23,635 nt of DNA, taken from positions 1 through 23,635 of IMG/VR virus record IMGVR_UViG_3300030104_005826; one strand, written 5' to 3'. Origin of the DNA: a virus. A program made the translations under genes and the position numbers. Each line of letters begins with the position of its first letter. The first letter of the stretch is position 1. This document shows, one piece after another, positions 1-23,635 of the stretch. The notes below the pieces were generated by a model that ran no database searches, had not been told where the DNA came from, and saw only the letters and a list, made by a program, of their open reading frames with translations.

Positions 1-114
1 ACAACTTCGTAAATGATTATCAGGACGCATTAAAGATTCAATAAAGATAGCACGAGCTCTATCCCATTTCTCATAAGATGTTAATTTTTCATCAAGTGTT
101 TTCTGGTCTTTCAT
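1..114 (-). CDS. Partial small protein, C-terminus beyond the left edge
   Basis: An open frame starts with ATG at 114 and stays open to the left edge, giving 38 codons. The visible N-terminus (MKDQKTLDEKLTSYEKWDRA) is charged and looks helical, ending near RPDNHLRSC. It overlaps the 3' end of the upstream 61-aa gene by 23 nt, which fits the dense small-gene packing here. No clear Shine-Dalgarno precedes it and I recognise no family. The composition looks like a real soluble protein rather than a shadow frame, but the evidence is only the open frame and its position. Confidence 0.5.
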   Translation of the reverse strand, partial: MKDQKTLDEKLTSYEKWDRARAIFIESLMRPDNHLRSC

Positions 115-277
115 GTAAATCACATTGTGGGGTTCCTTGAATTAGTATTTCAACTATTTCTATTTTAGCTTCAGAGGACAAATTCCTATCAGATTTAACA
201 GTCTCTATAATACCCTGAATATCAGAGCATTCCATAAGTCCAGCGACAAGAACTGCAATCATTGACGTAACATCCAT
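92..277 (-). CDS. Small hypothetical protein, 61 aa
   Basis: A 61-residue protein starting MDVTSMIAVLVAGLMECSDI. The first ~18 residues are hydrophobic and could be a short amphipathic or membrane-associated helix; the rest is acidic and helical (IETVKSDRNLSSEAKIEIVE). It starts 8 nt after the stop of the 64-aa gene, with a weak AGGT-type ribosome site between them, so the two are probably co-translated. It overlaps the next gene by 23 nt. No family is recognised. Its position after the tail-fibre terminator places it in a run of tiny accessory genes typical of T4-like phages. Confidence 0.55.
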   Translation of the reverse strand: MDVTSMIAVLVAGLMECSDIQGIIETVKSDRNLSSEAKIEIVEILIQGTPQCDLHERPENT

Positions 278-285
278 TACTATAC

Positions 286-480
286 CTATTTAACAACTTC
301 CCAATGGTCATCACACGATTCATGCATTGAAAATTTATATCTACCTGAAATAGATGAAAGATATACTTTACCCTGCTGTCGTTTCTCTACACGACAAGAA
401 TGTAATAAATCCATCTCTTTAGAGAATCTCTCTTTTGCTTGAGAAGATTTTGGATTCACGCAAAGCATTTCAGTTTTCAT
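286..480 (-). CDS. Small basic hypothetical protein, 64 aa
   Basis: A 64-residue, lysine- and arginine-rich protein (MKTEMLCVNPKSSQAKERFS at the start, DDHWEVVK at the end). The C-terminal half (GKVYLSSISGRYKFSMHESC) could form a small beta sheet. Its ATG overlaps the TGA of the preceding 36-aa frame as ATGA (477-480), a typical sign of translational coupling, and the 61-aa gene follows after 8 nt. No signal peptide or membrane segment is seen and no family is recognised. Confidence 0.55.
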   Translation of the reverse strand: MKTEMLCVNPKSSQAKERFSKEMDLLHSCRVEKRQQGKVYLSSISGRYKFSMHESCDDHWEVVK

Positions 481-587
481 AAGAAATTAGTAATAACGAT
501 AGAAGAAAGACGAACACCCCAATTCATAAGAACCATAAAGGATGCTATAAAAACAAGTTTTTCAGATCCAGTTAATTGCATTTTCAT
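477..587 (-). CDS. 36-aa predicted membrane microprotein
   Basis: This short frame begins with ATG at 587 and ends with TGA at 477-479, coding for 36 residues: MKMQLTGSEK, then a hydrophobic stretch (LVFIASFMVLMNWGVRLSSI) and a short hydrophobic tail. One transmembrane helix is likely, with the basic N-terminus outside the helix. Support comes from the ATGA overlap with the following 64-aa gene and from its filling what would otherwise be a gap. A second in-frame ATG at 581 is an alternative start. There is no clear Shine-Dalgarno. Small membrane proteins of this kind are common in T4-like phages, but no function can be assigned. Confidence 0.5.
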   Translation of the reverse strand: MKMQLTGSEKLVFIASFMVLMNWGVRLSSIVITNFL

Positions 588-607
588 TAACGAACTACAG
601 ATAGTAT

Positions 608-635
608 AAACCCCCACACCGAAGTGCAGGGGTTT
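608..635 (-). terminator. Rho-independent terminator with UUCG tetraloop
   Basis: Read on the minus strand this is a 12-bp stem closed by C(UUCG)G and continuing into UUUAUA. In that strand two positions are G-U wobbles (616/627 and 615/628). Read on the plus strand the same positions become A-C mismatches, so the hairpin is perfect only for minus-strand transcripts. It lies 45 nt beyond the stop of the last tail-fibre gene (681) and likely ends the structural transcript. A second, weaker inverted repeat (CACTTA/TAAGTG) lies between the stop codon and this stem. Confidence 0.85.
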
Positions 636-680
636 TGTGTGCCACTTAGTTAAGTGTACTATATTTTATAAAAAAGGAGT

Positions 681-1661
681 CTACCATCCATTACCTGCAA
701 ATAAAGCAAAATTAAGAGCACCCCAATTAGCATCATCATGTGCAAGTCTTATACCCTGTAGGGTACCACTACTACCTGCCCCAACTGCTCCCCCTGACAT
801 CTGATATTGGCCCATCACTGTGTAGTTATAATTAATCGATATAGTTTGAGAATTAAAGAGTTGAAATACGTTGGGGGCACTATTATTAAAGAAAAGCACT
901 TCTCCTCTGTTCCATTTTTGACCGTTACCCAGCTCATGCCATTGACGGTTAGTTCTGAAATTTGCGACCTCAGTTGTACCACTCTGACTCATTTGCTGGT
1001 AATTATATCCCTCAGTTATCCAATTACCACCTATTTTTACCTCCAAACCTAGATCATCACTAGTATCCACTGATTCATGAGCGAATATTAATTTCCACCA
1101 TTTTTTATCTGTATGACTTGCAAAATCGGTAAAAACATCATAAGTAGTTCCTGCTACACCTGCTGCTACATCCACACTAGCCATTTTAATCCATGCACCA
1201 CCAGAATCTACCCATTGAGGAGCAGCAGCATTACCTTGACTAGTTAATACTTGACCTGATGTTCCATAGTTAGTACCACCGATACCAACTTGACCAGCAC
1301 TTGCTATGCGGAGTCTTTCTGACCCACCAGTATTTAATATTAAATTAGATGCAGCATTAATTCCAGTAGAAGCAGTTACAACACCAACAACATCAATACC
1401 ACCAGCAGTAACATCAATACCACCAGCATTAACATCAATACCACTTCTTGCAGTTATAAGTCCAACTGAGTCAATATTATTAACATCCTCATAAGTAAGA
1501 GTTCCCCCTACAGTGACATTCCCACTGAAGTTAGCACTTACAGCAGTTATAATTCCTGTTGATCCTAATTGAAAAGTGGTTCCACTTGCAGTAGTAACAT
1601 CCAATCCTGGACCTGTTATAATACCAATGGGTGCTAATAATTGTGCCTTCGTCTGACTCAT
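681..1661 (-). CDS. Tail-fibre-like virion structural protein, 326 aa
   Basis: Likely a trimeric fibre or baseplate-decorating protein. The N-terminal ~150 residues are beta-repetitive with many 'GIIT/GLIT/GVVT' turns, including the near-tandem heptads GIDVNAG and GIDVTAG (about residues 74-92). A linker follows that is typical of marine phage fibres (SGQVLTSQG...PQWVDSGG, about residues 135-155). The distal ~170 residues form a separate beta-rich head resembling the C-terminal half of the 358-aa protein at 13342. The gene has its own late-promoter motif directly upstream (1681-1688) and a terminator downstream, so it is probably a single-gene unit. The function is inferred from architecture; no enzymatic motif is visible. 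Confidence 0.8.
   Translation of the reverse strand: MSQTKAQLLAPIGIITGPGLDVTTASGTTFQLGSTGIITAVSANFSGNVTVGGTLTYEDVNNIDSVGLITARSGIDVNAGGIDVTAGGIDVVGVVTASTGINAASNLILNTGGSERLRIASAGQVGIGGTNYGTSGQVLTSQGNAAAPQWVDSGGAWIKMASVDVAAGVAGTTYDVFTDFASHTDKKWWKLIFAHESVDTSDDLGLEVKIGGNWITEGYNYQQMSQSGTTEVANFRTNRQWHELGNGQKWNRGEVLFFNNSAPNVFQLFNSQTISINYNYTVMGQYQMSGGAVGAGSSGTLQGIRLAHDDANWGALNFALFAGNGW
1391..1444 (-). repeat. 21-bp tandem repeat inside a fibre gene
   Basis: Units at 1391-1411 and 1412-1432 differ at one base, and a third partial copy (12 matching bases) begins at 1433. They encode successive GIDV-x-AG heptads of the 326-aa fibre protein. This is a coding micro-repeat that could change copy number by slippage or recombination. 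Confidence 0.85.
1398..1423. repeat. 26-bp dispersed direct repeat, copy 1
   Basis: Positions 1398-1423 are identical to 14257-14282 in the 358-aa fibre gene, in the same orientation and about 12.9 kb apart. It encodes part of the GIDV repeat in both proteins and is a candidate site for homologous exchange between fibre genes. Confidence 0.85.
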
Positions 1662-4862: not shown

Positions 4863-4877
4863 GAGATATTTTTTAGA

Positions 4878-4885
4878 TATTTAGG
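4878..4885 (-). promoter_or_regulatory. Variant late promoter motif CCTAAATA
   Basis: Seen on the minus strand 15 nt before the ATG at 4862. It matches six of eight bases of TATAAATA. The same variant sits at the same distance before the gene at 13299, which makes chance less likely in this AT-rich sequence. Confidence is moderate because the two 5' bases deviate. Confidence 0.45.
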
Positions 4886-4890
4886 ATAAA

Positions 4891-7209: not shown

Positions 7210-7220
7210 ATAATTTTACC

Positions 7221-7985
7221 TTAATAATAAGCACCACTAACTACACCCAATAAGGTATAATTGTCGCATGTACTTGCTGAACCTACTGTATTGATTCCCG
7301 TAAATGATTGTATATAATATCCATGTGATGTTGTAAGTCCATTCACAGCAGCAGTAAATGAACCACCTGCCCACTGAATAGTCTTTGATACTCCATTAAG
7401 ATTAACTGCTGTTACAGTATGTGCAAGACCTGCATTTCCATTAATAATTGCACAGAATGTAAGAGTAGAATTATCAAAATCACTGGTTGTTGGAATACCA
7501 GTAACACTTAAAGTTATAGGTCCAGTTGAACTCGTACATATAGCAATATTACTACTATTTCCTGCATAAGTTAAAGTTGCGGTATTACCTGCAAATAAGG
7601 TACTCTTCTCCGAAACTGTGAATACTCTGGTTTCATCAGTTGAAAGAGGTATATTAAAATCAAATCCTTTCTTTGTATTATCATATAATAAAGTCTTATT
7701 TCCGTCATTACCACCATAAACCACAAGACCTGCATCAGCAGCAGTCGTATTCGATGCGGTTGAGGTTGATGCTACACCAACTGTCTTATCAGCAACATCA
7801 AGTTTTTCTGTATTAATAATCGTTTCTGTTCCCTGAACTGTCAAGTTACCAGGAATCAAAATAGTATCAGTCGTACTACCAAGTGTGGTAGCAGTAAGAA
7901 CTCCACTAATGTTTACGCCATTAGGGAAGGTTGGAGCACCCGTTCCCAATCTATCGACATAATTATCTGATCTAACTTTAGACAT
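7221..7985 (-). CDS. Tail-fibre-like structural protein, 254 aa
   Basis: The N-terminus (MSKVRSDNYVDRLGTGAPTF, then PNGVNISGVLTATTL) is the anchor pattern shared with the 277-, 570- and 358-aa proteins. A beta segment follows (LTVQGTETIINTEKLDVADK, about residues 48-67) that is nearly the same in the 277-aa protein. The C-terminal ~110 residues end with a pattern frequent in marine phage fibres (SFTGINTVGSAST...NYTLLGVV). A late-promoter motif lies 36 nt upstream, and the 772-aa gene follows after 11 nt. The repeated pairing of a small anchor protein with a large repeat protein suggests they assemble together. The role is inferred as virion structural. Confidence 0.8.
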   Translation of the reverse strand: MSKVRSDNYVDRLGTGAPTFPNGVNISGVLTATTLGSTTDTILIPGNLTVQGTETIINTEKLDVADKTVGVASTSTASNTTAADAGLVVYGGNDGNKTLLYDNTKKGFDFNIPLSTDETRVFTVSEKSTLFAGNTATLTYAGNSSNIAICTSSTGPITLSVTGIPTTSDFDNSTLTFCAIINGNAGLAHTVTAVNLNGVSKTIQWAGGSFTAAVNGLTTSHGYYIQSFTGINTVGSASTCDNYTLLGVVSGAYY

Positions 7986-8021
7986 TTGGGTTCACTCTCC
8001 CCCGACTATTATTTCTTTATT

Positions 8022-8029
8022 TATTTATG
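8022..8029 (-). promoter_or_regulatory. Late promoter motif CATAAATA (overlapping AATAAATA)
   Basis: On the minus strand two overlapping NATAAATA octamers (8022-8029 and 8018-8025) precede the 254-aa gene. They are followed by a G-rich element (GGGGGAG, 7997-8003) about 11 nt from the ATG at 7985, which could serve as a ribosome-binding site. This is the only fibre unit here with both a late motif and an evident purine-rich leader. Confidence 0.6.
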
Positions 8030-8036
8030 CAATCAA

Positions 8037-10718
8037 TTATGCGTGGGCATAATAAATCATCTTATTTCCATTCCCATTAACAGGGCCGTAGTTTGAATTT
8101 AATTTAAACCCTGTCGAGGTGGTATCTACATAGTCATAACTACATACTTCTGCTCCATTTTGATTAATTTTTAAATAACATTCACTACCACTACCATCAA
8201 GACCACTCAATGAATCCCACAAATTCCATTGGATAAAGTTAACACCAGAGGTTATACATTTAATTATGAGGAACCTTGGGGTAAAACCTAATGTAATTTC
8301 ATGTGATCCATCATTTGTTCCATCACCTGTGTAAGAGCCAACCTTAGATATTCCCGAAATACTGCTGAACAACATAGCCACATAATATGCACCAGAAACA
8401 TTATTCAATCCACCTCCTGCTGTAAACCAATGAGTACTAGTAGGTGGTTTCCACCATTGATTTCCACTTATTACAGCATCATTGGTATTTAATTTTAGAT
8501 AATAATCTTGAGGATATGTACCCATATCTTTATGATAAACTACCCAATCACTTGATGCATCTCTTCTCTTAACCCACATCATTTCTGGAGTAACTCCCAT
8601 ATTTTGCAATCTTTCAGCATTCTGACCCGTACCCATATAGACTTGAACATCAAAACCCTGATGGCGTTTCCACATCCAACTACAATAATCAGCATCTTCT
8701 CCTGGTTGCTCACCCCAACCATTTTGGAAATCCATTATATAATCATTATTATCAACTTGCTGGTTATTAGTTGGAGATCTTAAGTAAGTCTTACCAGTCA
8801 ATCTTGAAGCTATTTCCCAATCTTTATTTTGTACCTGTTGTTTTGTCATAGCAAAATCAAGAGGGAATCCACTTTCATAAACTGGATAAGATGCTGCATT
8901 ATTACCTTCATCAATAGCAAATATATTCGTGGCAACTTTCTCAGGTTTTGCTACCAGACCATCAGGTCTGCGTATAGCCACATAGACGAATTTATCACCA
9001 TCTGAATTGTTATAACTACCAGTTCCATTAGGAGAAAAACCATCAGACGCTAATGTTATACCACTTGCATTTATTTCATCTCCACTAGTACTCTGCAGTT
9101 CTAATCTAGTACCATGAGAATTAGCTTCATTTTGTCCTACTGCCATTCCCCTCATAACATCAAATACCTGCCAAGGTGTGCTACCCTGCGATGAATTTTT
9201 TATCATTATCCACTGGGGTTCCCACCCCAAATAAATTTTAGGTCGAGTAGAATTATTACCAGTTCCAATATACGATCCCGTAGCTATTAAATTTTGATCT
9301 CCTTCCTTTCCAAAGACATATTCTGCAGGGTCCGAGAAAGGACTATCATTTACAATTACTGTTGGACTACCTGAATCTGAAAGTGTTCCAGGAGTTACTG
9401 TTGCAACTTTTGGACCTGTATTTTGCAACATTAAAAGTGTAGTAAAAGTTATGTTTGTTAATGGTTCTATAGAAGGTTTAAATGAAGTTTGATATTGCGA
9501 ATATTTTTGAACACGTAAATTAGACATCTTTCCATCAAACCAAGTATAACTAGAAGAAGTGTAACTTCTATTTCCAAGGACTACATCATTAGTATTATTC
9601 ATATCACTAGTACGAGTAGCAGAATCTTTTAAAGTTCCATTAACAAATAAACGTACAGTTCCAGATGTCCTTGTTACTGCTATATGTTGCCATATACCTT
9701 CAAAAAAATCATCAGTTTGTACGACAATATCACTACCACCAGTAGCATTCATATAAACTCTAAGTTGTCCAGATGTTGCTTCATGTCCGATTGTTATACC
9801 TGTAGTCCCATTAGAAGGTCTTGAATCATAGAGAGTTCCTCTATTATTAAAATTATCAGGTTTAGCCCAAAATTCTATTGTAAAATTAGCTGTTCCAAAT
9901 GTTAAATCTTGAGCTGTACCACCTGAAGGACTTATACTTATAGAATCTTGATCAAAATCAACAGATTTTGCACCTGCTGCCTGAGACTCACCACCTGCAA
10001 AAATCCAAGCAATATAAGTTTCTCCTGATATATTATTATAACTTCCGATAGTAAACTGCGTATTTGTTGGCATCTGTGGGAAGGAAACATTACCTGATCC
10101 TGACTGTGCAGAATTAGTACTATCAAGAACTAACCATTTAGGTGAATCAAGTCCAGAATGCCATGATGCTTTATTTTCACTTTTAGTGGCACACATTGTA
10201 ATAATCCATCCTGGAGTAGAACCAAGATTATGCGAAATATCACGACTATTAGCATTATTGCCAGTGTACTCAACAATATCTAGAAAACCTGGAATTTTTT
10301 TAAATGAGTAACTTACATATCCATTAACATTTGTTTGATTTATCGTACTACTGGAACCTATAGTATATCCATCAGTATTAAATGATGTGTAACTATTAGC
10401 ATCATTATTCCGTTGTGCAATACTATTAGAATTTATATATCTCCCAGTTCCTAATATATTGGTTGTACTACCCCAAGCCCAATCATTTCCTGAATTTCTA
10501 TACTTAGTAATTACTAATCCACCATCTGTAGATAAATCAACACCATTAGTTATAGTCTTAGTACCTGCATTACCTACATAAAGTTGCGTTGAAAATACGT
10601 CGTCAAGATATGTTTTTTTAGCAACTGCACCACCTAATGCTAACCCAGTAGGTCCACCACCCAGACCAGCTAATCCAGCAAGAAATTCTTTCCTATGCGG
10701 AATAATATAAGGAGTCAT
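8037..10718 (-). CDS. Large tail-fibre-like protein with inserted LamG-like domain, 893 aa
   Basis: The third member of the five-repeat family. After a Gly/Ala-rich start (about residues 12-35) comes the shared head (DDVFSTQLYVGNAGTKTITN, then VDL...GGLVITK). Repeat 1 spans about 143-245. A concanavalin/LamG-like jelly-roll follows at ~250-462 (SVDFDQDSISI, FTIEFWAKPDNF, WQHIAVTRTSGTVRLFVNG, LGNRSYTSS, KMSNLRVQKY), a carbohydrate-binding fold common in adhesins. The repeat register resumes at DPAEYVFGKEGDQNLIATGS and continues through repeats 2-5 (about 475-893). The gene starts 2 nt after the stop of the 277-aa gene, so it is translationally coupled. Probably a receptor-binding or accessory fibre. 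Confidence 0.8.
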   Translation of the reverse strand: MTPYIIPHRKEFLAGLAGLGGGPTGLALGGAVAKKTYLDDVFSTQLYVGNAGTKTITNGVDLSTDGGLVITKYRNSGNDWAWGSTTNILGTGRYINSNSIAQRNNDANSYTSFNTDGYTIGSSSTINQTNVNGYVSYSFKKIPGFLDIVEYTGNNANSRDISHNLGSTPGWIITMCATKSENKASWHSGLDSPKWLVLDSTNSAQSGSGNVSFPQMPTNTQFTIGSYNNISGETYIAWIFAGGESQAAGAKSVDFDQDSISISPSGGTAQDLTFGTANFTIEFWAKPDNFNNRGTLYDSRPSNGTTGITIGHEATSGQLRVYMNATGGSDIVVQTDDFFEGIWQHIAVTRTSGTVRLFVNGTLKDSATRTSDMNNTNDVVLGNRSYTSSSYTWFDGKMSNLRVQKYSQYQTSFKPSIEPLTNITFTTLLMLQNTGPKVATVTPGTLSDSGSPTVIVNDSPFSDPAEYVFGKEGDQNLIATGSYIGTGNNSTRPKIYLGWEPQWIMIKNSSQGSTPWQVFDVMRGMAVGQNEANSHGTRLELQSTSGDEINASGITLASDGFSPNGTGSYNNSDGDKFVYVAIRRPDGLVAKPEKVATNIFAIDEGNNAASYPVYESGFPLDFAMTKQQVQNKDWEIASRLTGKTYLRSPTNNQQVDNNDYIMDFQNGWGEQPGEDADYCSWMWKRHQGFDVQVYMGTGQNAERLQNMGVTPEMMWVKRRDASSDWVVYHKDMGTYPQDYYLKLNTNDAVISGNQWWKPPTSTHWFTAGGGLNNVSGAYYVAMLFSSISGISKVGSYTGDGTNDGSHEITLGFTPRFLIIKCITSGVNFIQWNLWDSLSGLDGSGSECYLKINQNGAEVCSYDYVDTTSTGFKLNSNYGPVNGNGNKMIYYAHA

Positions 10719-15267: not shown

Positions 15268-16050
15268 ATGATCATATTAACAGGACATGAAGGTTTCATT
15301 GGAAAAAAATTCCTTGAGAAATTAACAGGAAAAGAAGTAATTAAAGTTGAAAAGAATAACAGTTGGCATTTTCGTACTTTTAATGAATGGTATAAAGTAG
15401 AACTAATAATTCATCAAGGTGCAATCTCTGATACTACATGCACCAACCTCCAAGCATTCCACCACTTTAATGTAGAGTTTACTGAGTGGCTATGCCAACA
15501 AGCAATCAAACATCAAATACCAATGAAGTATGCATCATCTGCATCTGTCTATGGTAATACATCTGACACAATCAATCCCCTCAACTACTATGCAATCTCC
15601 AAAGTCATCTCAGACTATTGGGTACAAGATCATATGGATGAGTTCAAGTTAATACAGGGATTCAGATACTTTAATGTCTATGGAGAAGGTGAAGAACATA
15701 AAGAAGACCAAGCAAGTCCAGTATCCAAATTCACTAAGCAAGTTAAAGATACAGGAGCACTCAAACTATTTGAAGGTTCTGATAAGTTCCTTAGAGACTT
15801 TGTATGTGTTGATGATGTTGTAGATATTGTCCTGAATAATGATAAACCATCAGGTATATATGATTTAGGTACAAGTAACCCCACTAGTTTTCAAGAGATA
15901 GGAGAACTAGTAGCAGAAAAATATGACGGCACAATAGAATATATCCCATTCCCAGAGCACTTAGAAGGTAAGTATCAAACCTACACTTGTGCTAAAAAGG
16001 AATGGGATTATAAGTTTAAAACTGTTGAAGAGTATATTAATCTCCTCTAA
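15268..16050 (+). CDS. hldD: ADP-L-glycero-D-manno-heptose 6-epimerase (short-chain dehydrogenase fold)
   Basis: Converts ADP-D-glycero-D-manno-heptose to the L-glycero form, the last step before heptosyl transfer; cytosolic. Visible motifs are the NAD(P)-binding TGHEGFIG (residues 5-12), ASSASVYG (89-96) with the conserved Ser, the YxxxK pair Y108/K112, FRYFNVYG (132-139), and HKEDQAS (144-150), where K145 aligns with the second catalytic lysine of HldD (K178 in E. coli). KLFEGSDKFLRDFV (166-179) and EYIPFPEHLEGKYQTYT (224-240) are HldD-specific. At 260 aa it is ~50 shorter than cellular HldD (~310), mostly in the loop after strand 2. It is the only plus-strand gene. Its 3' end overlaps the convergent cupin gene by 14 nt. 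A host-type promoter, not a late one, lies in front. Confidence 0.88.
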   Translation: MIILTGHEGFIGKKFLEKLTGKEVIKVEKNNSWHFRTFNEWYKVELIIHQGAISDTTCTNLQAFHHFNVEFTEWLCQQAIKHQIPMKYASSASVYGNTSDTINPLNYYAISKVISDYWVQDHMDEFKLIQGFRYFNVYGEGEEHKEDQASPVSKFTKQVKDTGALKLFEGSDKFLRDFVCVDDVVDIVLNNDKPSGIYDLGTSNPTSFQEIGELVAEKYDGTIEYIPFPEHLEGKYQTYTCAKKEWDYKFKTVEEYINLL

Positions 16051-16399
16051 AAATTCTAATTGAATCATCATCAAAATGTTGGGTCGAGAACTCGAATAGT
16101 TCTGTGTCTTCTAAGGCAACCATTTGATGTCTCAACCCTCTATAAACATGGAACCTATCACCAGGTTCTAATATAGTTGTCTTTGCATCTTCAAGTTTAT
16201 CTGTATCACCATAGAATAAATGTATTCTCCCTGATTGAATATAAAAAGTTTCATCTTTTAATTTATGATAGTGCCAAGAACATCTCTTGTTCTTTTTAAT
16301 AAACAAAAGTTTACCACAGTATTCAGGAGAATTAGCAATCCATTTCTCATATCCCCATCCCTTGGGCACATGCTTAATAGTAATTAAAGAATGCATCAT
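16037..16399 (-). CDS. Cupin-fold protein (sugar-phosphate isomerase/mannose-6-phosphate isomerase-like), 120 aa
   Basis: A single-domain cupin. Motif 1 is intact as HYHKLKDETFYIQSG (HxH-x4-E-x6-G; H43, H45, E50, G57), and motif 2 is LEPGDRFHVYRGLRHQM (PGD at ~79-81, H91), so a metal site is expected. The opening (HVPKGWGYEKWIAN) resembles the C-terminal cupin of type II mannose-6-phosphate isomerases. An in-frame ATG seven codons further upstream exists, but I prefer the start at 16399, which overlaps the TGA of the oxygenase gene as ATGA. It is the last gene of the cassette and converges on hldD. The substrate is unknown. It could be a sugar-phosphate isomerase or epimerase, or a regulatory sugar-binding cupin. 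Confidence 0.75.
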   Translation of the reverse strand: MMHSLITIKHVPKGWGYEKWIANSPEYCGKLLFIKKNKRCSWHYHKLKDETFYIQSGRIHLFYGDTDKLEDAKTTILEPGDRFHVYRGLRHQMVALEDTELFEFSTQHFDDDSIRIFRGD

Positions 16400-17007
16400 A
16401 CTACAGGACCAAGACCCCAACCAACTATTACTCTCCTCTTACCTTTCGTAACAGGTGTAACTTTATGTAGCATCCATGAAGGAAACACAATTATTTCTCC
16501 TTTATCAAGTTTAATTGTTTGTTCATCTAAACTCATTTTTAGAATTAACTCTCCACCTTCATATTCATCTTTCTCAGATATACCTAAAGAAAAAGAAAGT
16601 TTACGAGAAAGTTCATTTTGAGGTATTTTATATCCATAATCAATATGCCAATCATAATGTCCTTTATATGATTCATCATATTCGGTATATTGAAAAGGTT
16701 CCCAACCATCAATAACCCATCTCCAGTGGTTGTCATTAACACATCTTATTCTACCAGTAATTTCCTCATATAAAGGCATAAGATCATCTTTATATTTTTC
16801 ATCAGACATCCAATTAATTCTTGCATTCCTTACTTTATTAAAATTTTTATGTTCATGATGATGTTTACCCACAAATGATGCCTTATATAAATGTTGTTTC
16901 TTTATATAACTATTAACTTTATCAATAAAAGAATCATCTACAAAATTCGTTGTACTAAAAGTTAGTCCAGGAAACTTAGGATTTAACTCAGAAAAAAACA
17001 ATGGCAT
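16396..17007 (-). CDS. 2-oxoglutarate/Fe(II)-dependent oxygenase (prolyl-4-hydroxylase-like), 203 aa
   Basis: A double-stranded beta-helix dioxygenase. The iron ligands are seen as H121-x-D123 in DWHIDYG and H181 in FPSWMLHKVTPV. Basic residues R191/R192 in the following GKRRVIVGW would hold 2-oxoglutarate. YEGGELIL (149-156) is the usual strand before the distal motif. The N-terminal ~100 residues give the helical support typical of PKHD-type hydroxylases. It hydroxylates an unknown substrate; with sugar-tailoring neighbours this could be the heptose, a lipid or a virion protein side chain. An AGAGG ribosome site overlaps the stop of the preceding HAD gene, and the cupin start overlaps this stop. 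Such oxygenases are frequent in marine T4-like phages. Confidence 0.85.
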   Translation of the reverse strand: MPLFFSELNPKFPGLTFSTTNFVDDSFIDKVNSYIKKQHLYKASFVGKHHHEHKNFNKVRNARINWMSDEKYKDDLMPLYEEITGRIRCVNDNHWRWVIDGWEPFQYTEYDESYKGHYDWHIDYGYKIPQNELSRKLSFSLGISEKDEYEGGELILKMSLDEQTIKLDKGEIIVFPSWMLHKVTPVTKGKRRVIVGWGLGPVV

Positions 17008-17009
17008 AT

Positions 17010-17360
17010 CTACCTCTTATCATTAAAGAATACATGATCAGGACATGCTTTATCATCTATAAAATAATCAGCATGTGGTTTACCCATGATTAGTTCATTA
17101 TATTTAACACCCCAATCATCTAATTGCTGTTTTGTAAGATTGAATAAAACCTCTTTAGCATTTACAGACGCAATGGAATGAGGTTGATCAGAGAATCTAC
17201 CCATAGCCCGTGCAGTGAAGTAGATAATATAATTACCCTCATCATAAAGTTTATTTAGTACCTTGATCCTATCCTGCCAAGGTTCTGCTTTATGGTAATC
17301 TCTACCCACAGTTGGAGTACAAATGGTACCATCAATATCAACACAATAACGCTTTGACAT
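17010..17360 (-). CDS. Small HAD-superfamily phosphatase, 116 aa
   Basis: A capless-size HAD hydrolase. Motif I is VDIDGT (nucleophile D8 and acid D10, numbered from the third ATG), motif II is FTARAMGR (T49), and motif III/IV is MGKPHADYFIDDKA (K94, D102/D103). All catalytic residues appear present. Three ATGs stand in a row at 17366, 17363 and 17360. An AGGAG element directly abuts the first, leaving 6 nt to the third, so the third is the best start. The gene overlaps the end of the kinase gene. Similar small HADs occur in capsule and LPS loci. It may be the working heptose bisphosphatase, since its GmhB-like neighbour has lost a motif residue, but the substrate is not shown by sequence. 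Confidence 0.8.
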   Translation of the reverse strand: MSKRYCVDIDGTICTPTVGRDYHKAEPWQDRIKVLNKLYDEGNYIIYFTARAMGRFSDQPHSIASVNAKEVLFNLTKQQLDDWGVKYNELIMGKPHADYFIDDKACPDHVFFNDKR

Positions 17361-18069
17361 CATCATCTCCTAATACATAAGTTCCTGTGTGCGAAACAGC
17401 AATTGCTGCTGCTCTATTGGCAAGAGGAATTGCCTCCTCAATACTACCATACTTTAAATATCCATAAGTAAGTGCAGCAAGAAACGTATCTCCTGCACCA
17501 ACAACATCGAAGACCTTCACCTTCTCTGCTGGATACAACTTACCTTTATATTCTGTACCTTCTCCACCCTTAGTTATAATCATATTCTCTGGAATAAAAT
17601 GAGTAATCTTTTTAAACTCATATTCATTAACCTTTATGAAAGCATTTCCTGGTATTGAAATCTTTTTAGTATCAATAAAAATTGGACCATCAAAATTATT
17701 ACAAAGTTCAAATAACTTAGTTTGTGATATAAAACCCTTATTATAATCAGATATTACAAGAGCATCATATTCACCATCAAGTACCTCATCATCTAATGGA
17801 GTAACCTCTGATTCTTCATCAAGACGAAGAATTTGCTGATTAGATGTTTCATGAACATAACGAGTCTTAGTAATCTCTTCTTCCTGAGTAATCATATCTA
17901 CATAAACACCCAACGCATTCAAATTATTATATACATTCCATGCCATACCCTCTGTTCTTTTCTCCCTCTTAGGTTCAAGAATAGGAACAGGGGCTTCTGG
18001 ATTTAATCTTTTAACATCGCCATAAACAAAGACATCCGTACAACTATCACCAATTAATAATACTTTCAT
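17338..18069 (-). CDS. rfaE1: D-glycero-D-manno-heptose 7-phosphate kinase (PfkB/HldE N-domain type), 243 aa
   Basis: Phosphorylates heptose 7-phosphate at C1, using ATP. It follows the HldE kinase domain closely: GDSCTDVFVYGDVKRLNPEA (residues 7-26, like the GD..LDxY.xG..xRxSPEAPVP of HldE), TKTRYVHETSNQQILRLDEE (67-86), ALVISDYNKG (103-112) and VVGAGDTF (189-196), with D194 the catalytic base. Two oddities stand out. It is ~70 residues shorter than cellular kinase domains, with a gap near residue 65. The usual PGGAAN substrate loop is TEGMAWN (39-45). Its ATG overlaps the TGA of the adenylyltransferase gene (ATGA) and has AAAGGA upstream. In most bacteria this domain is fused ahead of the adenylyltransferase; here the two are separate and in reverse order. 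Confidence 0.85.
   Translation of the reverse strand: MKVLLIGDSCTDVFVYGDVKRLNPEAPVPILEPKREKRTEGMAWNVYNNLNALGVYVDMITQEEEITKTRYVHETSNQQILRLDEESEVTPLDDEVLDGEYDALVISDYNKGFISQTKLFELCNNFDGPIFIDTKKISIPGNAFIKVNEYEFKKITHFIPENMIITKGGEGTEYKGKLYPAEKVKVFDVVGAGDTFLAALTYGYLKYGSIEEAIPLANRAAAIAVSHTGTYVLGDDDVKALLC
17367..17371 (-). promoter_or_regulatory. Ribosome-binding site deciding the HAD start
   Basis: AGGAG abuts the first of three consecutive ATGs. Only the third (17360) has a normal 6-nt spacing, so translation of the small HAD phosphatase probably begins there. Confidence 0.65.
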
Positions 18070-18473
18070 AAGTTTTTAATCCTTTCAATAGTTTTACTGC
18101 TTGCATATCCACCAACTCTTGGGAGATGTCTAACTTCACCTGCATGTTCCCATCCAACTACATCACCATCCCTCCAATCATCACCAAGTAATAGTATATC
18201 AGGTTGGTATAATTCTATCAAATCTTCAAGTTCTTGTCTATCCCCAAATGTATGTACAACATCAATATACTTAATTGCTTCAAGCATTGCAACTCTATAA
18301 GATAAATTATTGATAGGTCTATGATCTCCCTTATCATTCTTTATCTTCTCATCCGTATCAGTAGCAACAATAACTTTATTACCAAGTGACCTTGCTACTT
18401 TAAACAGTTGAATATGTCCTGGATGAAGTATATCAAATGTTCCATTACACCATACTATGTCAGTTTCTATCAT
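18066..18473 (-). CDS. rfaE2: Heptose 1-phosphate adenylyltransferase (HldE C-domain type nucleotidyltransferase), 135 aa
   Basis: Makes ADP-heptose from heptose 1-phosphate and ATP. The nucleotidyltransferase signature is NGTFDILHPGHIQLF (residues 10-24, with the HxGH motif at 17-20). DKGDHRPINNLSYR (47-60), PDILLLGDDW (91-100) and the GYASSKTIERI ending (122-132, equivalent to the ISTT motif) match the C-terminal half of HldE and run to full domain length. Related TagD or glycerol-3-phosphate cytidylyltransferases share the HxGH motif, but the RPVN-like HRPINNLSYR segment and the neighbouring kinase, phosphatase and epimerase favour heptose. It is joined by ATGA overlaps both to the GmhB-like gene before it and to the kinase gene after it. 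Confidence 0.85.
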   Translation of the reverse strand: MIETDIVWCNGTFDILHPGHIQLFKVARSLGNKVIVATDTDEKIKNDKGDHRPINNLSYRVAMLEAIKYIDVVHTFGDRQELEDLIELYQPDILLLGDDWRDGDVVGWEHAGEVRHLPRVGGYASSKTIERIKNL

Positions 18474-19144
18474 AAAGAATTAACAAACTCTAATAAATTA
18501 TCAAATACCTGAACATCAGTATACTTAGTATTAATACCTTTTAAATGGTCTTTCTCTGTCTTTGCACCTTTACCTGTCCGAACTAAAATTGGTTTAACCC
18601 CAAACTTTTGTGCCATCTTAATATCTTCTATTGTATCACCAACATAATACCCATCAGTCCAATCCATACCTATCTCATTCTTAGAACGATTCAACATTCC
18701 AATATTTGGTTTAGCATACTGATCCTGTGGCATATCAGATTGATTATACAAGAAACCATCAATACTAAAAATACCTGCCTCTCCAAATTGTTGCATCATT
18801 CGTTGCATAATATTCTGAACATCTTGGTCAGTCATCAACCCTCTAGCAATATTAGGTTGATCTGCAAACATAAATGCCTTATGTCCCTTTAATCTTAACT
18901 GACGAATTGCCTCAAGAGAACCAGGAATATATCTAACATCTTCATACCTCTTAATTACATTTTTCCATTCTATAACCACACCATCCCTATCAATTCCAAC
19001 CATTGGTTTTGGAAATGTAGTTGGCCAATCTTGAGGATTATATTGACCTTGTTGCTGTGGTGATTGACCATATTGTTGAGGCATCCCCGATTGACTAGGA
19101 GATTGCATCTGTGATGAGGGTTGTTTTGATTTATATCTTCCCAT
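18470..19144 (-). CDS. GmhB-like HAD phosphatase with low-complexity N-terminus, 224 aa
   Basis: Resembles D-glycero-D-manno-heptose 1,7-bisphosphate 7-phosphatase. It has GIDRDGVV (residues 50-57; D52 and D54), IPGSLEAIRQLRLKGHKAF (73-91), NIARGLMT (98-105), K145 in AKPNIGML, VGDTIEDIKMA (168-178) and ILVRTGKG (186-193). Two departures from GmhB stand out. Motif II reads FADQPN, with Ala94 where GmhB has Thr in TNQSG, and the Cys/His zinc loop before the KP motif is gone. The first ~45 residues are a Gln/Pro/Ser/Gly-rich tail (SQMQSPSQSG, YGQSPQQQGQYN) absent from the family. Translation from this start is supported by AGGAGG at 19155-19160 and the one-base TAATG overlap with the carbamoyltransferase stop. 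Confidence 0.8.
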   Translation of the reverse strand: MGRYKSKQPSSQMQSPSQSGMPQQYGQSPQQQGQYNPQDWPTTFPKPMVGIDRDGVVIEWKNVIKRYEDVRYIPGSLEAIRQLRLKGHKAFMFADQPNIARGLMTDQDVQNIMQRMMQQFGEAGIFSIDGFLYNQSDMPQDQYAKPNIGMLNRSKNEIGMDWTDGYYVGDTIEDIKMAQKFGVKPILVRTGKGAKTEKDHLKGINTKYTDVQVFDNLLEFVNSL

Positions 19145-20868
19145 TATTCATTTTCCTCCTCTACATTAGAAACTTTAATTAATTTACCAAGTTCTGGCAT
19201 ATAAAGATATTCTAATTTACTATTACTTAAAGTAAAAATAGCATCATCTAAAGTCTCAACTAATGGCTGTCCACCAAGATTAAAACTAGTATTGAATAAA
19301 ATAGGAACTCCAGAAAGTTTATAAAACTCATTAATAAGATTATAATAATTCTTATTCTGTTCTTGAGTCACAGTCTGTATTCTACAAGTACCATCTACAT
19401 GGGTAACAGCAGGTAATTCACCAATATGCTTTGGTTCCATCTCCATAGCATACATCATATAAGGAGTTTCTTCACATCCCCTCAAATCAAACCATTCTTT
19501 TGCATGTTCTTGAAGTATAGAACCCGCAAATGGTCTGAACCATTCTCTACCCTTTACTGTATTGACAAAATCTTTTCCATTAGGATCTGTTGGATCATAT
19601 AATATAGAACGATTACCAAGTGCTCTTGGTCCTGCTTCTGCTCTTCCTTGAAAAATAGAAACAATATTACGATCCTTAATTAATTGTGCTACATCATAAT
19701 CAGTAGCATCCGTCACCTCAATACCATCATATCTTTCCAGATCCTTTTCAGTATAATCATATTGTGGTCCCAAATAAAGTGTAGTTAAAGAATCTTTAGG
19801 TATCTCTATTTCATTTTCTTTCATATATTCATATGAAAAATGTTTTGCATATCCAACTGCAGTTCCACCATCATGAGATATTGGATCAACATAAATATTC
19901 AACTCAGGAAATCTTTCCTTGTAATAATAATTTGCTATAACATTCAATCCATATCCACCTGATATTACAATATTCTTTTCACCAGTCATATCAACTGCCT
20001 GTTCGATCAAATCACCTACATATTCTTGAGTTTCTTTCTGAACTTTCCATGCAAGATTCTTTGCAGCATCTGGTAATTTAGAAGGATCTCTATGCCATTC
20101 TCTGGGGTCTCCTTTTTGCCTTAGATAATCAAATCTCTGCTGGTCAATATGTGCTCCTGCAGGATATTGAGGGATAAAAATGTTTTTATCCCCTCTCTTA
20201 GTATCTTTATAAAAAAGATCAGGAATGTCTTTACATTTTCTACCATAGGGAGCAAGTCCCATTGTTTTTCCTGCTTCAATAAATCCAAATCCCAAATATT
20301 CTGAGACTGCTTCATATGCTTTTACAGTAGTCACCGCAGAATCTATTTCTCCTTGAGGAGAGGAAATATTAGGAGCATTATTCTCTGCATGTCTTTTAAA
20401 AACTGGTTCTACTTCAGTACCTTTACACTTAAAAATACTCTCAGTTTCATAAGCTTCTATTTTATTATTCTCATCAACTTCAATACCTTGACGACTACCA
20501 GACCCATCAACTATAACAGCAGCAGCACTTTCAAATCCAGATCCAAAAAATGCAGCATATGCATGACCATAATGATGCTCACCCCAAACTGCTGTTACTT
20601 TCACATTAGGATAATACTTTCTTACCAATGCACCATAAGAAATCTCTCCAGTCCAAGGAAGTCTATGCTCTTCTTGTCCTGTTCCACACATAATTAATTC
20701 ATCAATCTTATACCGATCAATAAGATATATCATTCCTCGATAAGGATTGCCATCATATTTTGAACGACTTAATCTTTCTTCTTCAATATAATATTCTAAC
20801 TTACCATCACATACAAGTGCCACAGAACCATTATGTCCTGGATTAATTGCCATTACATTATAAGTCAT
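19144..20868 (-). CDS. Sugar O-carbamoyltransferase, NodU/CmcH/TobZ family, 574 aa
   Basis: Transfers a carbamoyl group from carbamoyl phosphate (via carbamoyl-adenylate) to a sugar hydroxyl. Two domains are visible. The Kae1-like domain has INPGHNGSVAL (8-18), EEERLSRSKYDG (29-40), the metal-binding GEHHYGHAYAAFF (96-108; H98, H99, H102), VIVDGSG (118-124), SGGYGLNV (303-310) and SHDGGTAVG (331-339). The C-terminal YrdC-like domain has FQGRAEAGPRALGNRSIL (406-423), REWFRPFAGS (441-450) and FNTSFNLGGQP (525-535). Length and all key motifs are normal for the family. AAGGAG lies 8 nt before the ATG, and TAATG overlaps join it to both neighbours. With heptose genes around it, a carbamoyl-heptose product, as known at O-7 of Pseudomonas core heptose, is the best guess. 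Confidence 0.9.
   Translation of the reverse strand: MTYNVMAINPGHNGSVALVCDGKLEYYIEEERLSRSKYDGNPYRGMIYLIDRYKIDELIMCGTGQEEHRLPWTGEISYGALVRKYYPNVKVTAVWGEHHYGHAYAAFFGSGFESAAAVIVDGSGSRQGIEVDENNKIEAYETESIFKCKGTEVEPVFKRHAENNAPNISSPQGEIDSAVTTVKAYEAVSEYLGFGFIEAGKTMGLAPYGRKCKDIPDLFYKDTKRGDKNIFIPQYPAGAHIDQQRFDYLRQKGDPREWHRDPSKLPDAAKNLAWKVQKETQEYVGDLIEQAVDMTGEKNIVISGGYGLNVIANYYYKERFPELNIYVDPISHDGGTAVGYAKHFSYEYMKENEIEIPKDSLTTLYLGPQYDYTEKDLERYDGIEVTDATDYDVAQLIKDRNIVSIFQGRAEAGPRALGNRSILYDPTDPNGKDFVNTVKGREWFRPFAGSILQEHAKEWFDLRGCEETPYMMYAMEMEPKHIGELPAVTHVDGTCRIQTVTQEQNKNYYNLINEFYKLSGVPILFNTSFNLGGQPLVETLDDAIFTLSNSKLEYLYMPELGKLIKVSNVEEENE
19155..19160 (-). promoter_or_regulatory. Strong ribosome-binding site for the GmhB-like gene
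   Basis: AGGAGG stands 10 nt before the ATG at 19144, inside the end of the carbamoyltransferase gene. It supports translation of the unusual low-complexity N-terminus rather than an internal start near residue 48. Confidence 0.7.
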
Positions 20869-21812
20869 TATACTTTCTCCTTAATATCTTTTACAATACT
20901 CTTATAAATTTCATCAACTTCTTCCTCAGAAAAATCCATCAATTTATCATTCAATCTATCTGTTAAATGGCAGTCAAATCCAGCAACACGAATTGGTGAA
21001 TATACTTTCTCTACATTTTTATTCTCAATCATATTAAAATAATCAGGATATGAAACATTTGATGCATAAGTAGAACCCATTATAACTGTTCCAGGTATAT
21101 CAAATGCCCTTGCCATATGCTGTCCAACACTATCACACCCAATAAAGTAATCAACAGATTCTATTACAGCACTCCAGAATCGTAAATCTACACCTTGAGG
21201 TTTCTCTGAAATTTGATCATCTTGAGATACAAGATTAACAAAATCAGGTTCTGCCATCAATATAATATTATATTTTTGAGATAATTTCTTAACCAACTGT
21301 TGATAAACATGTGGTTCAATTGATCTGGTACTATCATCTATAATATCCCCATTATCTACCCTTGCAGATCTTCCAAATGGTTGAATGACAATCGTTAAAT
21401 CTTTACTTTGTTTTGCTTTTACACTTGCAAGCATATTAGCAGCATTTTTCTCTTCTGCTTTACAAAGATATAAATTTGGTTTACCTAAATCAGAATGATC
21501 ATCTGTTTCATTTATCTCTTTATCAAATGCTTCTGCAAGAGAACATTGTTGATTATAATATTCCCATTTCGTATATGGTTCTGGATGAACAATCTGATTA
21601 TCTTTAATTAAATTATTGAAAAGACCTTTCACATCCATACTATAAGTCCTCTCCTGAAGAAGAGGATTACCAAAATATAAAGTATCCCAACCACCAATAA
21701 TTATATTCCAATCTTCGTCAGGATGAAGTCGAGCATATTTTTCTAGTGCTGGAATTGCACATATAGCACGTCCTGCTCCTCCATCAATGGAGAAAACCTT
21801 TTTTCTTGTCAT
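20868..21812 (-). CDS. Glycosyltransferase family 9 (heptosyltransferase-like), 314 aa
   Basis: A GT-B fold transferase expected to use ADP-heptose. The N-domain has DGGAGRAICAIPALEKYARL (residues 10-29), a variant of the GDhllxlPal start of GT9 enzymes. The C-domain has TIVIQPFGRSAR (140-151) and the nucleotide-sugar site DYFIGCDSVGQHMARAFDIP (221-240) followed by VIMGST (243-248), equivalent to the usual 'GxDSGxxHlAxAxxxPvvxlfGxT'. Length is close to the usual ~320-350. It is the first gene of the cassette, with an AATAAATA late motif 40 nt upstream, and its stop overlaps the carbamoyltransferase start. The acceptor (host glycan, virion protein or small molecule) cannot be read from sequence. 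A non-heptose GT9 is possible, but the neighbours favour heptose. Confidence 0.83.
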   Translation of the reverse strand: MTRKKVFSIDGGAGRAICAIPALEKYARLHPDEDWNIIIGGWDTLYFGNPLLQERTYSMDVKGLFNNLIKDNQIVHPEPYTKWEYYNQQCSLAEAFDKEINETDDHSDLGKPNLYLCKAEEKNAANMLASVKAKQSKDLTIVIQPFGRSARVDNGDIIDDSTRSIEPHVYQQLVKKLSQKYNIILMAEPDFVNLVSQDDQISEKPQGVDLRFWSAVIESVDYFIGCDSVGQHMARAFDIPGTVIMGSTYASNVSYPDYFNMIENKNVEKVYSPIRVAGFDCHLTDRLNDKLMDFSEEEVDEIYKSIVKDIKEKV

Positions 21813-21886: not shown

Positions 21887-22834
21887 CTATGTTGTGGTAA
21901 CCCCCACAGATGCACTAGCCCGTAGAGGACAATTATAAATACTGACCTCTAAAAATAAATTATCTGATTCCCAATTAGAAGAAATACCAACAGTAACAGT
22001 TCCTATCCCTGTTGTACCTACTGGTGTTATTGTCATAGTTCCAGAAGAACTTGTACCATCATAATCATAATTAGTGCTCCATTCAAGATCTTGCGAAAGC
22101 ACTTGATTTGTAAGAGTAATAGTAAAACTAATACCTGCACCAGCAACAACTGTTGTTGCAGCTGCACTTACAGAAGGCGTTAATTGTGGTCTATCTTGAG
22201 CATAATAAAGATTACCCACTCTAGAATATTCTAGAGAAGATTCAATTTCTACAGGAGATGTTGACGCAAGAGAAATATTTACTGTTGTAATGCCAGCGAC
22301 AATACCAACGACAAGTCCTTCACTTGATACAGTATCTCCAACTTCAACTCCAGTGGTATCAGCAATACCAACAATATCAGTTCCTGCACCTACTGGACCT
22401 GATGAATCAACTGTAAGACTTCCTTTTTGAATCATACCAGTTGTAACACCTACCCACGAGGTAGTTGCTATTCCTAATGGATCATCATTGGATTTTATAA
22501 ACCCTAAAGCCTCAGGATTAATCTCTGAGTGTCCAGGTGCTAATGGCCAATCTGCCTTCTCAAACCAATAAGGTGCTTTTGCATCACCAGGAAGATCACG
22601 CAATTTTTCTCTATAGGTTGCCCATGCAGCCTTAGTGGTTGAATCTAATGGATTATCAGGAACCTGAGTCCAGTCTGATACTTTAAGTTCATCATCCCTA
22701 TAAGTTCTCAGTTCTGCGAATCCTGAAGTTAGATGACTTGTATGTAATTCAATCCTATCTGCTAACTCCTCCTGAAGATTGAATACTTCAGGTGAATGAG
22801 TTTCAGTACCATCCAAATTAAAAATAACTGACAT
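21887..22834 (-). CDS. Virion protein with tail-assembly-chaperone-like N-domain, 315 aa
   Basis: Residues ~45-85 (RDDELKVSDWTQVPDNPLDS, then TKAAWATYREKLRDLP) match the conserved core of phage tail-fibre assembly chaperones (Phage_tail_APC-like: 'R..LL..SDWTQ.pD.pL....k.aW..YRq.LRdlP'). Unlike free chaperones, it continues with ~80 residues of Val/Gly/Thr-rich beta repeats (about 120-200) and a C-terminal Ig-like sandwich (~215-315, VSAAATTVVAGAGISFTITL at its start). It could therefore be a structural protein that carries the motif, or a fusion of chaperone and client. AAGGGGG (22843-22849) precedes the start at 8 nt spacing, and the Cys-rich gene ends 13 nt upstream, so the two form one unit. 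Confidence 0.7.
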   Translation of the reverse strand: MSVIFNLDGTETHSPEVFNLQEELADRIELHTSHLTSGFAELRTYRDDELKVSDWTQVPDNPLDSTTKAAWATYREKLRDLPGDAKAPYWFEKADWPLAPGHSEINPEALGFIKSNDDPLGIATTSWVGVTTGMIQKGSLTVDSSGPVGAGTDIVGIADTTGVEVGDTVSSEGLVVGIVAGITTVNISLASTSPVEIESSLEYSRVGNLYYAQDRPQLTPSVSAAATTVVAGAGISFTITLTNQVLSQDLEWSTNYDYDGTSSSGTMTITPVGTTGIGTVTVGISSNWESDNLFLEVSIYNCPLRASASVGVTTT

Positions 22835-22842
22835 TTGTATAT

Positions 22843-22849
22843 CCCCCTT
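22843..22849 (-). promoter_or_regulatory. Ribosome-binding site of the 315-aa gene
   Basis: AAGGGGG overlaps the TAA stop of the Cys-rich gene and lies 8 nt before the ATG at 22834, supporting both that start and coupling between the two genes. Confidence 0.65.
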
Positions 22850-23635
22850 AAGCTGTTGTCATGGAACATGTACCAAAGCATGGTCTATCACAGGGTATAC
22901 CCCATATAGTCCAACAAGGCATACCTATCATCAGATCACCACCTTCAGTAGTAGGATAATTACCTCCTGCTAATACCGATTGGAATGGTGTTTCTTGTGT
23001 TCTTACACACATTCTTGTCACATACTTAGAAGAATTTTGCTCCTTACCCCAGAATATACATGCACAATTCACCTGTCCCTTCTGTCTCTCACATCCACTA
23101 TAATTATGACAATCACAACATCTTACGAATTTTTTATAACTCCAATCATACCAAAAACCTGTACCTAGATTTCCTGAAGTACATCCTTTCCATTTTGGAG
23201 CCATTATACAGAATTCAAAACTCCATGCATTATCAAATGAACTATTACAACAATAAACACATGCCTCTTTACCCATCCAACAACAACTGTAATGACACCA
23301 ACAACAACATGATTTCATTGGCCAAGCACAAGTACAGTGTCCTCTATAATTTTCGTTGCAGCAACAGAAACAATCATCACTACCAGCCCCAGGATAAATG
23401 TAAGTATAGCAACATGCACAATTCCTTACACCATTATAATGAATCTTAAATCCTTTGTATTTAGAAGTATCAATACACCATATTACACAGCATCCATAAC
23501 AATCAGTCCAACAAGGACAATTACAAATCATCTCCCAACACCCAAAACCAGGCATTACTAGGGGAGATGGTTGACATGCAGGAGGTTGAGTGGTAAGTTT
23601 GCATACTGTATCGCAAACAGCAGTACAAACTTGTG
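22848..23635 (-). CDS. Cysteine- and tryptophan-rich protein, 5' end beyond the right edge (at least 261 aa)
   Basis: An unrecognised protein. From the ATG at 23555 there are 235 residues with 39 cysteines (about 17%) and 13 tryptophans. The frame is also open upstream to the window edge and stays Cys-rich there (QVC, AVC, TVC and PAC), so that Met is probably internal and the gene is cut by the window. Cysteines occur as CC, CCC, CxC and CxxC clusters (CNCPC, CFCCC, CCCWC) next to aromatic residues. Recurring [N/H/R]C-x-C plus aromatic segments (NCACCYTY, HCTCAWP, NCACIFWG) hint at beta strands. The last ~45 residues (QSVLAGGNYPTTEGGDLM...) are less Cys-dense. No signal peptide can be judged. 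It is coupled to the tail-chaperone-like gene, which suggests a virion role. Disulphide-locked spike or metal-binding protein are both open. Confidence 0.7.
   Translation of the reverse strand, partial: QVCTAVCDTVCKLTTQPPACQPSPLVMPGFGCWEMICNCPCWTDCYGCCVIWCIDTSKYKGFKIHYNGVRNCACCYTYIYPGAGSDDCFCCCNENYRGHCTCAWPMKSCCCWCHYSCCWMGKEACVYCCNSSFDNAWSFEFCIMAPKWKGCTSGNLGTGFWYDWSYKKFVRCCDCHNYSGCERQKGQVNCACIFWGKEQNSSKYVTRMCVRTQETPFQSVLAGGNYPTTEGGDLMIGMPCWTIWGIPCDRPCFGTCSMTTA

Follow-up and report, generated by a model that had tools for sequence, protein, structure and literature searches.

Gene content of the tail-fibre locus

We analyzed a window of 23,635 nucleotides that corresponds to bases 1-23635 of a viral record of 60,673 bases. 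Its sequence places the virus with the T4-like marine myoviruses of the cyanophage type. For two of its tail proteins, the best matches are to Synechococcus and Prochlorococcus phages and to marine single-cell viruses; S-SM2, Bellamy, and SynMITS9220M01 are among the top ones. The genes discussed here follow the order tail fibre and baseplate, a connector-like phrog_677 protein, a big cysteine-rich protein, the small cysteine-rich protein that is the target of this analysis, a Phage_tail_APC protein, a phrog_8954 protein, a carbamoyltransferase, and a sugar cassette.

The target gene lies on the minus strand at 22848..23635, an extent assigned from its open frame, its translation, and homologues of the same position and length in MH319759, L006/L009, L007, and L010. 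The frame is open over 22848-23633 (261 visible codons), with its stop at 22848-22850. The original prediction had reported at least 43 cysteines in about 261 residues, rich in tryptophan and outside normal phage protein composition. We counted 43 Cys (16.5%) and 13 Trp, together with 14 Tyr and 11 Phe, so that W+Y+F amounts to 14.6%. The composition is abnormal by the standard of the virus itself: median Cys content is 0.56% among the 42 non-overlapping ORFs of at least 100 aa in the same record, and the Cys-richest ORF besides the target and its upstream neighbour (10.1%) reaches 3.4%. The genes adjacent to this pair do not share the bias.

The frame was also predicted to pass the window edge with the same cysteine bias, and the first half of this claim is correct. 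The target begins at an ATG about 22 codons beyond the edge, near record position 23699, where it overlaps the stop of the preceding upstream gene (TAATG). The codons beyond the edge encode a Gly/Ser-rich linker that lacks Cys and reads MARYVSTKAAGGGGSSGG... Because the gene reaches only about 22 codons further, the cysteine bias past the edge is not its own; it belongs to the upstream gene, which codes for a protein of 741 aa with 75 Cys (10.1%; record 23698-25923, L003:1199-3424) and overlaps the target start. A scaffold gap of 10 Ns (approximately 23636-23645) sits just past the window edge, in a part of the target gene that is rich in GGN. Its length throws the gene out of frame, and gene callers would therefore overlook the true start. 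Recovery of the full gene, proposed as a check, thus located the start codon but left the linker length inexact. By eye, the target N-terminus resembles short MGRYV/MGRFV...GGGG proteins encoded beside PSSM2_302. Its best conserved C-terminal motif, PCWTIWGIPC (22890..22919, minus strand), is kept in close homologues, and a distant syntenic counterpart on contig L014 ends in the similar FGLYGIP.

Directly downstream of the target, a 315-aa protein (21887..22834, minus strand) carries a Phage_tail_APC, or tail-fibre-assembly chaperone, domain at residues 40-100 (PF16778, 2.3e-15) and also matches phrog_8716 and phrog_4912 (tail fibre / tail fibre assembly). It is the likely assembly partner of the Cys-rich pair. 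This neighbour and the existence of homologues uphold the earlier description of the target as a tail-linked protein of unknown kind. Two further genes anchor the slot by synteny. The phrog_8954 protein (20868..21812, minus strand; E = 3.5e-98) corresponds to T4-GC 302 in P-SSM2 and was found in 55 phage records. A Nol-like carbamoyltransferase (19144..20868, minus strand; PF16861/PF02543) likewise neighbours the slot in P-SSM2, S-SSM7, S-CAM1, S-CAM3, and Sf-FS3.

Elsewhere in the window, positions 15268-18473 hold a sugar cassette much like the one in P-SSM2. It comprises epimerase, cupin, 2OG-Fe(II) oxygenase, PfkB kinase, and, as a separate protein, CTP_transf_like; the counterpart small protein is named 'cysteine dioxygenase' in the P-SSM2 and S-SM2 records. 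Three long tail-fibre-like proteins with DUF7483 (1689-10718) have ordinary Cys content; one adds Laminin_G_3 and one Gly_rich_2. Profile alignments (hhalign) of the big or small family against the window's other tail-fibre proteins were negative.

Relatives of the pair and the domain architecture of the partner

A tblastn search of 50,697 phage records returned one match per protein, both in the single-cell record of Marine virus AG-345-O18 (MH319759); the genes are neighbours there too and encode proteins of 758 and 290 aa. Further relatives came from IMG/VR contigs (L005/L007, L006/L009, L008, L010, L011, L012, L013, L014, and L015). Nine phage records contain the pair, placed between tail-fibre/baseplate genes and the tail-assembly chaperone. 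Big and small genes are adjacent and followed by phrog_8954 in MH319759, L005/L007, L006/L009, L010, L011, L013, L014, and L015; in L012 the big protein is present and the small one is absent. Across relatives, the big protein spans 669-911 aa with 5-12% Cys and the small protein 248-310 aa with 6-13.5% Cys. Small-protein homology is clear for MH319759, L006-L008, and L010. The small proteins of L011, L014, and L015 show 25-29% pairwise identity versus 23-25% for shuffles, and are syntenic counterparts only, agreeing in position and composition. A scan of genome contigs revealed no cellular homologues. In the phage represented by L009, the 911-aa Cys protein is preceded upstream by three tail-fibre-like ORFs (L009:1-5006) with raised Cys contents of 5.4%, 3.2%, and 2.9%, and the bias may extend to other tail proteins there.

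Neither protein matched Pfam, PHROG, or NCBIfam, and a PDB sequence search with the family profiles gave matches at chance level only. For the target, AF2 gave an all-beta model with low confidence (pLDDT 39.8, pTM 0.50). A fold search with this model gave weak beta-sandwich or lectin-like matches (Z ~5), and nothing significant was found in BFVD.

The partner was more informative at its ends. Members of the big family are conserved at both termini and variable in the Cys-rich middle. When the first 58 residues were joined to the C-terminal 35-50, they aligned with the whole 106-aa PSSM2_302-type domain, from one end to the other (hhalign 98.8%, E = 1.3e-16, 99 columns). PSSM2_302 of P-SSM2 (T4-GC 297) and its equivalents are Cys-poor and uninterrupted, whereas the domain of the 741-aa partner is interrupted midway by a Cys-rich insert of 500-800 aa. 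PSSM2_302 itself matches the tail-fibre family phrog_11338 (4.5e-8). AF2 modelling of the big homologue from L005, although of low confidence (pLDDT 33.0, pTM 0.30), independently places the N- and C-terminal strands together in one beta-sandwich that matches a region of complement C5 (Z 9.4, 91 residues, 2.3 A, model range 1..757). The joined-end profile match and the union of both ends in the model indicate that the big protein is a phage beta domain of 105 aa opened by a Cys-rich insert of 500-800 aa. A beta-propeller-like region at 470-690 of the big-protein model was considered and set aside as weak (Z 5-7). Separately, a 109-aa ORF that follows the big Cys protein in L012 (L012:4366-4695) resembles an uninterrupted version of the split domain.

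Cysteine-rich proteins at the same slot in cultured cyanophages

We compared the locus with the stretch just upstream of phrog_8954 in cultured and single-cell viruses. In P-SSM2, S-SSM7, S-CAM1, S-CAM3, and Sf-FS3, and in the single-cell viruses AG-345-F15 and AG-345-P14, this stretch encodes between one and three proteins, 260-357 aa long, in which Cys makes up about 8-12%. They are annotated as hypothetical wherever annotation exists. They include P-SSM2 304/306 (L018:6973-8043 and 8772-9839), S-SSM7 114-116 (L019:5923-8316), and sets of two or three in tandem in S-CAM3 (L020:6291-9109), Sf-FS3 (L021:5961-8374), and S-CAM1 (L022:6332-9132). Those scanned from P-SSM2, S-SSM7, and S-CAM3 fall into two PHROGs of unknown function, phrog_4205 and phrog_35878; no PHROG matched the AG-345-P14 protein.

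The phrog_4205 and phrog_35878 proteins (260-356 aa) share with the target a high Cys content, a tandem arrangement, and a position beside phrog_8954 and the carbamoyltransferase. They differ in being glycine-rich (WTVPxGVxxxxxxxWGxGGG...), with Gly_rich_2 matches in some, and no homology to the target was detected: hhalign of the two families gave 0.1%, and the target and its homologues matched neither PHROG. Cysteines were kept better than other residues between the S-SSM7 and Sf-FS3 slot proteins (p = 0.0015-0.036); in cultured-phage families at 39-53% identity, Cys positions were kept no better than other residues. Two Cys-rich solutions at one slot suggest convergence or an exchange of parts. 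Cysteine richness is not required at this position, since S-SM2, a close cultured relative, has Cys-poor proteins in the slot.

T-even gp38-type distal adhesins offer a further comparison. They are separate, small, fast-varying, glycine-rich proteins at the fibre tip, and their glycine-rich character is common to the cultured-cyanophage slot analogues. Unlike gp38, the target is not glycine-rich beyond its linker, and neither it nor its partner has a Pfam match to Gly_rich_2 (PF21722). Gp38 is not known as a Cys-rich protein.

Cys-rich slot proteins are apparently undescribed in the searchable literature: our search found no account of Cys-rich cyanophage tail proteins, with most subscription papers outside its reach, and no virion proteome that detects the pair or the slot proteins of cultured phages. 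A virion proteome has been published for S-CREM2 (PMC10665884); in the tail region examined, this phage lacks Cys-rich proteins.

Evolution, cysteine chemistry, and putative role of the pair

The Cys-rich pair evolves faster than its conserved neighbours (dN/dS 0.51-0.63 vs 0.06-0.22). Between MH319759 and L005, dN/dS was 0.51 for the big protein, 0.62 for the small protein, and 0.69 for the chaperone-domain protein, compared with 0.10 for phrog_8954 and 0.22 for the carbamoyltransferase. Between L006 and L008, the values were 0.63 for the small protein, 0.66 for the chaperone-domain protein, and 0.06 for phrog_8954. The chaperone-domain gene thus evolves as fast as the pair (0.66-0.69). Position at the tail locus, the partner's domain, the neighbouring chaperone, and fast evolution together point to distal tail adhesins. 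To the full reading, an adhesin module with variable loops held by disulphides, we give about an even chance (roughly 50%). Virion location, disulphides, and receptor binding are all predictions for the pair.

Faster evolution also bears on the possibility that the proteins are a structural part of the virion (a whisker, a collar, or a cross-linker) whose inter-protein disulphides make the particle harder after lysis, and that they have no direct contact with a receptor. Tail locus and Cys content are consistent with such a part, and where Cys counts are odd, thiols would be left over to bond between chains. We nevertheless consider it unlikely: the conserved neighbours have dN/dS values 2-11 times lower, the dN/dS of the pair and its length variation (669-911 aa in the big protein) are closer to receptor-binding parts than to structural linkers, and a gene with a tail-fibre-assembly chaperone domain directly follows.

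Retention of cysteines depended on evolutionary distance. In the closest pair of small proteins (MH319759/L005, 78% identity), 31/31 Cys are kept while 63/259 other aligned residues changed (p = 3e-4), and five of these Cys codons differ synonymously (TGC/TGT). The corresponding big proteins keep 68/80 Cys (p = 0.008). In the L009/L008 comparison, Cys retention was not significantly different from that of other residues. At 36-45% identity, the target shares a fraction of 0.50-0.62 of its Cys positions, versus 0.41-0.43 in an alignment-shuffle control. More distant members share Cys positions at the level of this control, yet their Cys content is still high, which indicates that content outlasts position. 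Strong conservation of positions in distant pairs was rejected as a reading because the shuffle control shows that the aligner creates much of it. The homologues with conserved Cys positions that the original prediction looked for therefore exist among the closest relatives, and to a modest degree at intermediate distance, but not among the most distant members.

The spacing of the cysteines did not bear out the clusters that had first drawn attention to the gene. The CC, CCC, and CxC groupings in the target are what a protein of 16.5% Cys gives by chance: CC occurs 9 times versus 7.0 in shuffled sequences (p = 0.25) and CxC 8 times versus 5.7 (p = 0.20). The idea of stacked cysteine ladders is likewise not supported, with spacing near random and positions that turn over among distant relatives. 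Big-family Cys counts (75, 73, 75, 111, 94, 69, 80, 62, and 33) show no even-number bias and so do not indicate complete intrachain pairing, and paired gain or loss of Cys along the sequence was not significant (p = 0.28).

Metal binding had been suggested as well, and a tail protein whose cysteines bind Fe, Zn, or Cu, structurally or as bait for an uptake receptor (the 'Ferrojan horse'), would account for the very high Cys content. In the 741-aa neighbour, CC (p = 0.008) and CxC (p <0.001) are enriched. One paper describes six potential iron-binding domains in the tail fibre of a marine phage (PMC11705849). In our sequences, however, CxxC is at or below chance in every family member (2 vs 4.8 expected in the target), and His is hardly conserved, many pairs of members sharing none. 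The target thus lacks the CxxC excess and conserved Cys/His ligands of zinc-finger, rubredoxin, or Fe-S proteins, making zinc or Fe-S sites unlikely. Metallothioneins have about 30% Cys with CC and CxC pairs and lack aromatic residues. The target resembles them in its high Cys content and its CC and CxC pairs; unlike them, it is much longer, has 16.5% rather than about 30% Cys, and is rich in aromatics, as are the Cys-rich proteins of the family in general (W+Y+F 11-17%). These findings weaken the metal-cluster reading, and we regard a metal-loaded tail protein as rather improbable. The lack of CxxC enrichment, the poorly conserved His, and the abundant aromatics favour disulphides formed after release instead.

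A protein that acts inside the cell, as a redox buffer, a metal sequestrant, or an anti-host factor, and merely sits in a tail operon would fit the absence of virion detection. We hold this to be quite improbable, since the pair is embedded between tail-fibre/baseplate and tail-chaperone genes in relatives, the ends of the partner carry a tail-fibre-type domain, and a reducing cytoplasm gives such Cys content no obvious use. That the frame is no real gene, or its Cys content a by-product of base composition or an artefact, is very improbable: the scaffold gap at the gene start and the near-random spacing would allow it, but the pair occurs in independent contigs and a single-cell virus record, dN/dS is below 1, adjacent genes lack the bias, and all 31 cysteines of the closest pair are kept despite the synonymous codon differences. 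Homologues, conserved synteny, and dN/dS indicate instead that the target is a real coding gene on the minus strand.

We propose the following model for the adhesin reading. Two genes at the tail-fibre locus would form an adhesin module, with the target as the second of them. The 741-aa protein would attach through the beta domain formed by its two ends and display the Cys-rich insert, while the target would attach through its N-terminal MARYV... / Gly-Ser linker segment and display a Cys-rich all-beta domain. The downstream chaperone-domain protein may help to assemble both. Thiols would persist in the reducing host cytoplasm, and lysis into oxic seawater would then allow many disulphides to staple long variable loops. 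With stability provided by many redundant cross-links, the loops could change quickly while single cysteines come and go, and rapid loop change would track changes in the host surface. A redundant mesh of replaceable disulphides would fit a Cys content that is kept while positions drift. The disulphide-locked spike of the original prediction, taken as a distal spike or adhesin, remains the best reading.

A broader proposal is more tentative. Marine T4-like phages may possibly have evolved, repeatedly and in at least two unrelated families at the same locus, adhesins selected on Cys content rather than Cys positions. In this class, a disulphide mesh formed only in oxic seawater would hold variable loops that are otherwise unconstrained.

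The Cys-rich pair is real and unusual, and is best filed as a putative phage tail adhesin variant. Little is known of how abundant ocean phages recognise cyanobacteria and the organisms around them. The presence of two proteins with 10-17% Cys at the position that normally encodes host-binding tail tips, together with the unrelated Cys-rich slot proteins of P-SSM2, S-SSM7, and S-CAM1/3, points to a chemistry-based strategy at the tail tip, one that is testable now in cultured cyanophages. If the adhesin reading is true, proteomics performed without reduction and alkylation may miss these proteins, the genes would be candidates for determining host range, and a set of unlabelled hypothetical proteins in reference genomes would be explained.
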